DNA of 64,000 nucleotides. Origin: Candidatus Melainabacteria bacterium (GTDB taxonomy: Bacteria; Cyanobacteriota; Vampirovibrionia; Obscuribacterales; Obscuribacteraceae). How positions within the stretch are numbered: position 1 is the first letter of the stretch; each line of letters opens with the position of its first letter. This document shows, in pieces, positions 62,887-64,000 of this stretch. A model generated the notes under the pieces. It made no database searches. It saw only the letters and a list, made by a program, of their open reading frames with translations, and was not told the DNA's origin. The stretch lies in the NCBI GenBank assembly GCA_016212515.1, contig JACRFZ010000038.1, positions 19,365 through 83,364 of the forward strand, in the 5' to 3' direction. The position numbers were made by a program, and so were the translations under genes.

Positions 62887-64000
62887 GTGGTTAAAAACAC
62901 GAGTGAGATGCCACGCAATCGTAAATCGCTCAAGGAGCGGTTGCGCGGTATCACAGCCATTGAATTGGGAGCTGTGGTTTCTATCCTTATTGTGATATGT
63001 GCCCTGGCCCTCAATATTGCCGTTCTGATATTCGCGGCTGATATGTGCGACAGAGCCTGTAAGGACTGCGCCAGATCAGCGGGTCAGATGGGAAGGGTAG
63101 GTCAGGCCGTCGATGCAATGCAGGCATCACTGAGCACCCACCCCGTAGACGGTACGGTCATCCAGAGTCTGAATGCAGAGCTAATCACCTATGAAGATTA
63201 TCTAGCTGCTCCGAATAACGGCTCACCCACAACGACCAGCACAAATGGTCCGATTGGTACCACAACCGGTGGTACTCCGGGTGTGCCTCTGCCTGGCGCA
63301 GGTGGTCTGGGAAGTTCCCCGGGTCCCTTCGTTTCCGTAAGAACCACTCTCGTTGCCCGTATTCCGGCTCCGATTGTATTCTTCCAGGCTAATTTCGGTG
63401 CCGCTCCGAATAACCAGCAAGGTTCTCTCGCCGCAGGCAACGGCTTGATCACATTCCAGAGCTTGTATACATATCCGATTACCAACACGGCGGGTCCGCT
63501 CACCCTTGGTAGTTCGGGCGGAGGTACCCTCCCCGGAGCCACAACCGGCACCGGCACGGGTGGTCCCGGTGGTCCCGGCGGCCCTGGTGGTCCAGGCGGT
63601 CCCGGCGGTGGTCCCGGCACCAGCACAACCGGCGTTCTCGGCAGCACCGATGCCGGACCCACAGGTCCTATTGGTCCCGGTGGTCCCCTTGGTCCTGCCG
63701 GTCCTAACGGTCCCGGCGGTCCTCAAGGCCCCGGCGGTCCTCTCGGTCCCGGCGGTCCTTCCGGCCCCGGTGGTCCCCTTGGTCCCGGCGGTCCTTCCGG
63801 TCCCGGCGGTCCTCTCGGTCCTGGCGGTCCTGGTGGTCCCGGCGGTCCTGCCGGTCCCGGCGGTCCCTTAGGTCCCGGCGGTCCTTCCGGCCCCGGTGGT
63901 CCTGGCGGTCCTGGCGGTCCCGGTGGTCCCGGTGGTCCTTCCGGTCCCGGTGGTCCGGAAGGTCCGGGCGGTCCCGGGGGGCCTGCTGGTCCCGGGGGTC
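62887..64000 (+). CDS. TadE-type pseudopilin with long collagen-like tail; runs off the right edge
   Basis: At least 371 residues from GTG 62887, which is preceded by GGAGGAGG. The basic leader ends in RGITAIELGAVVSILIVICA: Gly20, four residues, Glu25, then a membrane helix, a prepilin-peptidase type signal. The segment AADMCDRACKDCARSAGQMG and the later LVARIPAPIVFFQANFGAAP correspond to parts of the other two TadE-type proteins. After a Gly/Thr linker comes a first block of Gly-Gly-Pro (from 63559). From 63664 to the edge follow at least 37 uninterrupted Gly-Pro-X triplets, mostly alternating GPG with GPL, GPS or GPA. This would form a collagen-like triple helix; other bacteria use such tails for surface fibres. 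The gene is incomplete, so its C-terminal anchor or head is unknown. Confidence 0.85.
   Translation, partial: MVKNTSEMPRNRKSLKERLRGITAIELGAVVSILIVICALALNIAVLIFAADMCDRACKDCARSAGQMGRVGQAVDAMQASLSTHPVDGTVIQSLNAELITYEDYLAAPNNGSPTTTSTNGPIGTTTGGTPGVPLPGAGGLGSSPGPFVSVRTTLVARIPAPIVFFQANFGAAPNNQQGSLAAGNGLITFQSLYTYPITNTAGPLTLGSSGGGTLPGATTGTGTGGPGGPGGPGGPGGPGGGPGTSTTGVLGSTDAGPTGPIGPGGPLGPAGPNGPGGPQGPGGPLGPGGPSGPGGPLGPGGPSGPGGPLGPGGPGGPGGPAGPGGPLGPGGPSGPGGPGGPGGPGGPGGPSGPGGPEGPGGPGGPAGPGG
63559..63618 (+). repeat. First Gly-Gly-Pro block in coding sequence
   Basis: Codons GGT GGT CCC and near copies repeat about six times, encoding GGPGGPGGPGGPGGP with one extra Gly near the end that shifts the triplet phase. 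It is coding, not CRISPR: the 9-base period keeps frame and varies only at third positions. Confidence 0.85.
63664..64000 (+). repeat. Uninterrupted Gly-Pro-X collagen-like repeat (at least 37 triplets)
   Basis: A 9-base coding period (GGT CCC NNN) gives 37 consecutive Gly-Pro-X triplets and continues past the window edge. About every second triplet is Gly-Pro-Gly, making an 18-base (six-residue) super-period GPGGPX with X mostly Leu, Ser, Ala, Gln, Asn or Glu. Third-position variation between C and T argues for an old, selected array rather than a very recent expansion. Confidence 0.9.

Follow-up and report, generated by a model that had tools for sequence, protein, structure and literature searches.

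What is a long run of collagen-like Gly-Pro-X triplets doing on a protein that begins like a pilin? The question is raised by the last gene of a 64,000-nucleotide stretch (the window) from Candidatus Melainabacteria bacterium, which is C19:19365-83364 of a 124-contig genome (contig JACRFZ010000038.1). The last base of the window is also the last base of contig C19 (83364 bases), so that the stop codon of the gene is not visible in this genome. An initial annotation, made from the sequence of the window alone, had read the gene as a TadE-type pilin with a collagen-like tail and had proposed that a collagen fibre is attached to a Tad-type pilus or its base. What it observed in the sequence is confirmed overall, and its interpretation is partly supported. 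The explanation that we favour, and that our analysis makes reasonably probable, is that the gene encodes a TadE-like minor pilin that is assembled together with the products of two neighbouring genes into the tip of a Tad pilus, with the Gly-Pro-X tail serving as a collagen-like stalk; we think that a location at the tip is more likely than one at the base. The gene has the following features.

62875..62882, plus strand: Shine-Dalgarno sequence GGAGGAGG of the gene.
62887..64000, plus strand: tadE-like minor pilin gene that carries a collagen-like tail and runs off the contig before its 3′ end (from the open reading frame, the contig end, and orthologues that reach a stop codon).
62887..62949, plus strand: prepilin-type leader, residues 1-21 (Gly21 and Glu26 invariant in 19/19 alignment rows).
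62950..63492, plus strand: predicted pilin-like domain, residues 22-202, a long helix and three strands (AlphaFold2 model and alignment).
63562..63606, plus strand: first short run of 5 Gly-Pro-X triplets.
63655..63996, plus strand: unbroken run of 38 perfect Gly-Pro-X triplets, truncated where the contig stops.

The gene starts with GTG at 62887, behind the Shine-Dalgarno sequence that the initial annotation had pointed out, and forms a single open frame of 371 amino acids to the end of the window. Where at least 37 perfect triplets had been claimed, we count 38 in one run; Pro is always second and Gly is last in 21 of the 38, in agreement with the claim that about half are Gly-Pro-Gly. By comparison, 2000 shuffles of the tail residues gave a longest Gly-Pro-X run of 5. 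The visible start of the tail contains no Lys. The fusion, whose absence from close relatives was to count against it, is present there, and the frame reaches a stop codon. Specifically, orthologues L047, L048, L049, and L053 are 864, 897, 669, and 719 amino acids long, and further intact orthologues have 672 and 614 (both in genome G007), 538 (G009), and 913 (G025; about 40 fewer if an inner GTG is used). The genome studied here belongs to the same genus as G002, whose copy (L048, at G002:C1:1800586) has the same position as in Candidatus Obscuribacter phosphatis MOYA01000001. Each of the eight intact orthologues has 101-212 uninterrupted Gly-x-y triplets in a single phase. When 13 proteins were taken together, all of common ancestry and 5 of them cut by a contig end, Gly was replaced in 0 of 1,628 triplets and Pro in 7, with the Gly phase always kept; the uninterrupted Gly-X-Y pattern by which a collagen-like protein is recognised thus runs through all of them. 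About half of the triplets end in Gly, and most of the others in Ser, Ala, or Lys. Seven of the eight complete orthologue tails have 10-22 Lys with at most one Asp and at most one Glu, and the eighth (L059b) is without Lys, Arg, Asp, and Glu. We note that the complete tailed proteins (L047, L048, L049, L053, L057, L058, L059b, L065, and L074) terminate in Gly or Gly-Gly, with TVGG, YSEGG, YATGG, SPEG, SPIG, APIG, and PPGG as endings after a short non-repeat stretch; an exception is the Pro-rich protein of G015, which ends in PPEN.

A search of the window protein in its sense frame with the Pfam models for TadE (PF07811) and Collagen (PF01391), the two that the initial annotation had proposed to use in looking for the fusion, returned neither at E 1. 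Because both cut-offs are missed, we call the protein TadE-like and collagen-like and do not assign it to either family. Such a gene is easily missed, since its repeat breaks assemblies and the two Pfam models fail to flag the window protein; 7 of the 16 visible collagen-tailed genes end at a contig end. Among the 50 genomes of the family that were searched, an orthologue was found at E 1e-25 in 18 and the fusion (a Gly-Pro-X run of at least 12) in 14, as 16 genes. In G006 and G061 the contig ends before the tail of the orthologue can be judged, the orthologues in G004 and G026 have no Gly-Pro-X run, and 2 of the 23 loci in this tail check (L022 and L152) are without the whole domain. Outside the family there was one weak match each in two of three genomes of the same order (G036 and G038), and 21 genomes of other families in the class, to which the genome search was confined, gave no match to the N-terminal domain.

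Might the tail be a selfish expansion of a 9- or 18-base repeat, or might the true gene lie on the opposite strand? Against our favoured explanation, the L048 tail has tandem repeat periods of 9, 18, and 99, in 8/8 orthologues one antisense frame of the tail is Gly-periodic, with a Gly in each of 100-206 successive triplets, and PF01391 finds a match on the minus strand, a match that arises because the opposite strand also reads Gly-x-y in one frame. In the window the antisense of the tail (63723-63998, minus strand) is open, collagen-periodic, and matched by the Pfam Collagen model. A codon alignment of the Gly-Pro-X zones of L047 and L048, made with an aligner that rewards synonymous pairs and that skipped 39, 39, 35, and 263 gap columns in four pairs, counted 194 Gly codons that are the same, 9 that differ silently, and 0 that are changed; the corresponding counts are 139, 63, and 0 for Pro codons and 112, 76, and 14 for X codons. 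Between the window and L047 the silent and changed codons number 6 and 0 for Gly, 17 and 0 for Pro, and 19 and 2 for X. Over 160 gapless codons L047 and L048 have 39 differences, 37 of them at sense third positions and 2 at first positions, and over 118 codons the window and L047 have 55, made up of 43 third, 7 first, and 5 second positions. Because the differences are silent at Gly and Pro codons and fall mainly at third positions, the protein itself is conserved and not the DNA repeat alone, and the uniform design to which the initial annotation had drawn attention is, judging from these codons, under selection at the level of the protein. Antisense coding is ruled out by the codon-position counts, and pure repeat expansion by the silent-only differences at Gly and Pro codons; moreover, in L059b the periodic antisense frame is interrupted by 15 stops, and the sense tail is in frame with a conserved domain that has a Shine-Dalgarno sequence. 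We give this alternative next to no credence.

The protein in front of the tail begins with a leader of the Class III type, consisting of Gly, four residues, Glu, and then a hydrophobic helix. The initial annotation had recognised the type of prepilin-peptidase site correctly, although its numbering (Gly20 and Glu25) was one too low, and cleavage would be expected after Gly21. The AlphaFold2 model of the N-terminal domain (mean predicted local distance difference test score 74.5) has a helix at residues 10-66 and strands at 92-103, 148-158, and 187-197; a pilin-like helix with three strands is thus modelled, where lack of a TadE-type domain would have spoken against the initial annotation. Searches of the PDB by fold and by sequence gave no clear or useful relative. 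Kinship with TadE is supported by the finding that a search with the domain matches TadE proteins of the same genome, on C80 at E 2e-5 and on C33 at 3e-4, which carry PF07811 at 38.9 and 26.5 bits. The TadE-like body that had been claimed therefore stands as regards these relatives and falls as regards a PF07811 match of the protein's own. PF07811 is matched by 11 of 73 relatives. The rows of our structure alignment (A2) were 65 of the 105 proteins found and 8 window or locus rows. A Pro-Val-Pro-like motif, said to be shared with two other proteins, was seen in the one neighbour compared, the product of the gene at 59549 (IPVPW, compared to IPAPI in the 62887 protein); it lies within the conserved domain, where Pro160 is invariant in 19/19 rows.

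That the protein is attached to a Tad pilus is inferred from the arrangement of the genes, from homology, and from the Tip complexes described in the literature. The genes that precede the pilin gene are these.

58584..59342, plus strand: TPR protein gene upstream of the cassette (L047, L048, L049, and L053 have a gene of similar length in this position).
59549..60148, plus strand: first tadE-like gene of the cassette, 199 amino acids, G-x4-E leader (GAMAAEY).
60236..62710, plus strand: tadG-like gene, 824 amino acids, with a Tad N-terminus (PF13400) and a split VWA-like part (DYSGS at residue 191, TDG at residue 731).

As the initial annotation had it, the gene stands after tadE and tadG: it is the third of a tadE-like/tadG/tadE-like trio (59549, 60236, and 62887), the order of which is kept in L047, L048, L049, and L053 and in G006, G007 (first copy), G009, G025, and G034. 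The product of the 59549 gene, whose counterpart is at the same place in L047, L048, L049, and L053, has no Pfam match at E 1; that of the 60236 gene matches PF13400 at 29.5 bits, above the cut-off, and PF00092 at 19.6 bits, below the cut-off of 23.8. There are four full three-gene cassettes in the genome, on C19, C80, C104, and C119, and 13 matches to the profile of the pilin-like domain. Genes for a Tad-type motor are found on C98 (TadE, RcpC, ParA-like, one T2SSE ATPase, and two T2SSF) and on C8 (ParA-like, T2SSE, and two T2SSF), together with two prepilin peptidases (on C23 and C8), three secretins, and two further PF00437 matches on C23. The Flp Pfam model found nothing in the genome, and a motif scan found a short Glu-Tyr prepilin at each Tad locus (L075 near 7249 and L102 near 3637). 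What marks Tad Tip genes, a trio with a TadG-like large subunit and several paralogous trios alongside motor genes, is thus present. We also note an HTTM-domain gene (PF05090) at 56721-57677 of the window, upstream of the cassette; in relatives a gene alike by eye is downstream of the cassette (L047:14104-15474).

Two features lie between tadG and the pilin gene.

62768..62801, plus strand: terminator-like hairpin between tadG and the 62887 gene, 15 pairs and a T-run.
62809..62824, plus strand: direct repeat TTCAC-N6-TTCAC, a possible response-regulator operator.

Terminator-like sites in the window number 4, compared to 3.6 expected, and the other three have only 5 pairs. Among 17 gene copies, which include near copies and two same-genome pairs and for which L065 was taken from its inner GTG, stems of at least 13 pairs with a T-rich end precede 13. 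L051 has a weak one, no hairpin was found within 250 bases of L057, L059a, and L064 (L064 has one further upstream), and in L056 and L058 the hairpin comes after the direct repeat. The repeat TTCAC-N6-TTCAC has one match in the window, compared to 0.06 expected, and a TTCAC direct repeat with varying spacers occurs within 200 bases upstream of 15 of the 17 copies, being missing at L051 and L057. Genome-wide there are 19 occurrences of the YTTCAC form, compared to 2 of a reversed control, an excess that is less marked in five other genomes (37 compared to 15); four of the 19 are located between the Pro-Ala cassette of C80 and a divergent gene and may therefore serve either. The eleven-base spacing of the repeat presumably fits a regulator of the OmpR/PhoB type. 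An OmpR-type regulator and a sensor kinase lie beside the second collagen gene of G007, a copy that is itself without the repeat. By way of a direct-repeat site of its own, the 62887 gene is probably regulated independently of tadG. The identical repeat, CTTCACGCTCACTTCAC, is found again some 20 kb downstream of the collagen gene in both G001 (C5:52736) and G002 (C1:1820631), as well as on another contig of the genome studied here (G000:C24:18134). A further direct repeat that resembles that of the pilus collagen gene, TTTCAC-N5-TTTCAC (C119:61960), is about 130 bp upstream of a gene on C119 (C119:62104; L002:1219-1674, plus strand) for a PF01391 collagen-like protein of 151 amino acids, membrane-anchored by eye.

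Several of these observations would suit a pseudopilin-like membrane protein that works outside the Tad pilus, either anchoring a periplasmic or surface collagen-like fibre or belonging to a type II-like system, and so weigh against a Tad tip. The second collagen-tailed pilin of G007 (L057:7471-12537) has no trio, being without a tadE- or tadG-like neighbour and adjoining the OmpR-type response regulator and sensor kinase; the hairpin separates the 62887 gene from tadG; and the Pfam TadE model is without a match. We nevertheless consider this explanation improbable, given that the order of the trio is kept in L047, L048, L049, and L053 and in the five genomes listed with them and that kin on C80, C104, and C119 are in the same kind of trio.

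The pilin-like domain carries tails of other kinds as well. Lys-containing (Pro-Ala)n tails that end in PPGG or PPEG are present on C80 and in G001, G002, and G006; Ser/Gly- or Ser/Thr-rich tails in G004, G020, and G026; GPGPGP in G014; poly-Pro in G033; an acidic end in G022 and G028; and a long, helical-looking tail in G035, while the proteins on C85, C104, and C119 end directly after YTFPIV. In a tree of 35 rows the tail classes need 8 changes, compared to a minimum possible of 7, although the classes were made by hand and the rows were chosen, both of which restrict the test of tail swapping. A single change, weakly supported (61/9), suffices for the 14 collagen rows, and the five Pro-rich rows (G000, G001, G002, G006, and G015) form one clade with support of 100/99. 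The tree omits L052 and L054 (near copies), L055 and L066 (cut), L088 (N run), and L068 (same gene as L092); of the 17 loci L084-L100 the domain was recognised in 11, and L086, L089, L093, L094, L097, and L100 were not included. On this comparison of sequences the tail is an exchangeable module on one scaffold.

That exchangeability bears on another alternative, in which the tail is a single-chain extended spacer of polyproline-II-like form that makes no triple helix and holds the pilin or its end off the tip. Non-collagen tails occupy the same position in paralogues and relatives; Gly, which in the third position of a triplet is poor for triple-helix stability, fills about half of these positions; and a heterotrimeric tip has a single copy of the tailed subunit (PMC12075869; this and the other articles cited here are represented by portions of their text). 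All three points count against a collagen-like stalk. However, not one of the 1,628 triplets departs from Gly whereas 7 depart from Pro, which speaks against a spacer because a plain rod needs Pro more and a triple helix needs Gly more, and the Gly codons differ only silently. We therefore regard a mere spacer as a serious rival that is nonetheless unlikely.

If the protein is indeed a pilin of the Tad tip with a collagen-like stalk, a type IV prepilin peptidase would cut after Gly21, and the exposed helix would pack with the helices of two partner pilins and start a filament, the tip of which the Tad motor would push through the secretin. Outside of the cell three tails would come into register and close up into a triple helix, which for 212 triplets could reach about 180 nm, the rise of a collagen triple helix being about 0.86 nm per triplet. 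Here lies what appears to be the chief puzzle, and a point against this explanation: a heterotrimeric tip would supply one collagen chain. With one copy per pilin per tip, three chains would therefore have to come from three tips, the tails bundling pili or joining cells; a homotrimeric tip could be another source of the chains. Because seven of the eight intact tails have 10-22 Lys and almost no acidic residues, the stalk is predicted to adhere to anionic surfaces or polymers; the VWA-like part of the TadG-like subunit would be the adhesin or a force sensor. Taken further, the idea becomes that of a collagenous pilus, in which Obscuribacteraceae would swap stalks whole and, in one cassette, three tips would zip together collagen zones of 300-640 residues, at most about 180 nm long, welding the pili of one or several cells. 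We put this extension forward tentatively, as possible but hardly probable; if it were true, retraction by the Tad motor would pull in a rope of collagen, the tension of which would be sensed by the VWA part.

A collagen-like stretch near the start of contig C122, a candidate for the continuation of the tail, was rejected because it belongs to a kinase gene on the opposite strand that ends there. In this kinase (L009:16-1824, minus strand; 602 amino acids, PF00069) a membrane helix is probable by eye, and the short C-terminus, rich in Gly-Pro-X, ends in GG; the protein might pair with the tail of the pilus. Its family has 30 matches at E 1e-60 in the genome, and among many paralogues in the other 20 genomes no clear orthologue was found.

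It is known that the tips of Tad pili differ in the globular domains at their ends. In the present case it is a fibre that varies, and a single scaffold takes several kinds of fibre, collagen among them. If our explanation is true, a moving pilus bears a fibre of the animal type, in uncultured Obscuribacter bacteria, non-photosynthetic relatives of cyanobacteria that are known here only from assembled genomes. The question of how three chains could be brought into one helix by a machine that assembles its product subunit by subunit would become open to test, and a very regular collagen sequence free of hydroxyproline is a potential material.

Collagen-like proteins of bacteria include Scl, BclA, and Lcl. 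Like such proteins, the tail has Gly-X-Y without hydroxyproline and prefers Pro in X, at 1,621 of 1,628 triplets as compared to more than 30% (PMC3707005); unlike them, its carrier is a prepilin-like protein. An extended proline-rich C-terminal tail on a minor pilin is known from the streptococcal FctB, which differs in belonging to a sortase pilus and in having a tail of 15 residues that is not Gly-periodic (PMC3707005). Among the matches listed in a literature search, which covered open-access articles and few subscription journals or preprints, a fusion of collagen with Tad, TadE, or a pilin was not found; the one match that paired Tad pili with collagen-like proteins was a review of autoaggregation (PMC8286834), and in two other matches TadE proved to be part of the surname Tadeo. 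The CpaJ, CpaK, and CpaL proteins of Caulobacter crescentus, predicted possibly to form a three-part tip, resemble the trio in their pilin modules and in a large subunit with a split VWA and a metal site of the DxSxS kind (PMC12607857). Specifically, the order of helix and strands in our N-terminal model is that described for the pilin module of CpaL, and the DYSGS and TDG of the 60236 protein are far apart, as in the split VWA of CpaL; no repeat tail is described in the portions cited, and the word collagen is absent from the main text (PMC12607857). In the Kil pilus of Myxococcus xanthus, four paralogous trios make interchangeable heterotrimeric Tips, kin of TadE/F/G, with similar ones predicted elsewhere (PMC12075869). 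The cassettes described here are like the Kil Tips (KilL/M/N) in that three minor-pilin genes lie side by side, that a genome has several paralogous cassettes, and that the C-terminal parts vary (PMC12075869), and unlike them in that the TadE-like subunit bears the repeat tail, collagen-like in the C19 cassette; the words collagen and proline are absent from the main text of PMC12075869. TadE-like pilins and collagen-like proteins are each of a known kind, and their union appears to be a variant of the idea of the Tad Tip.
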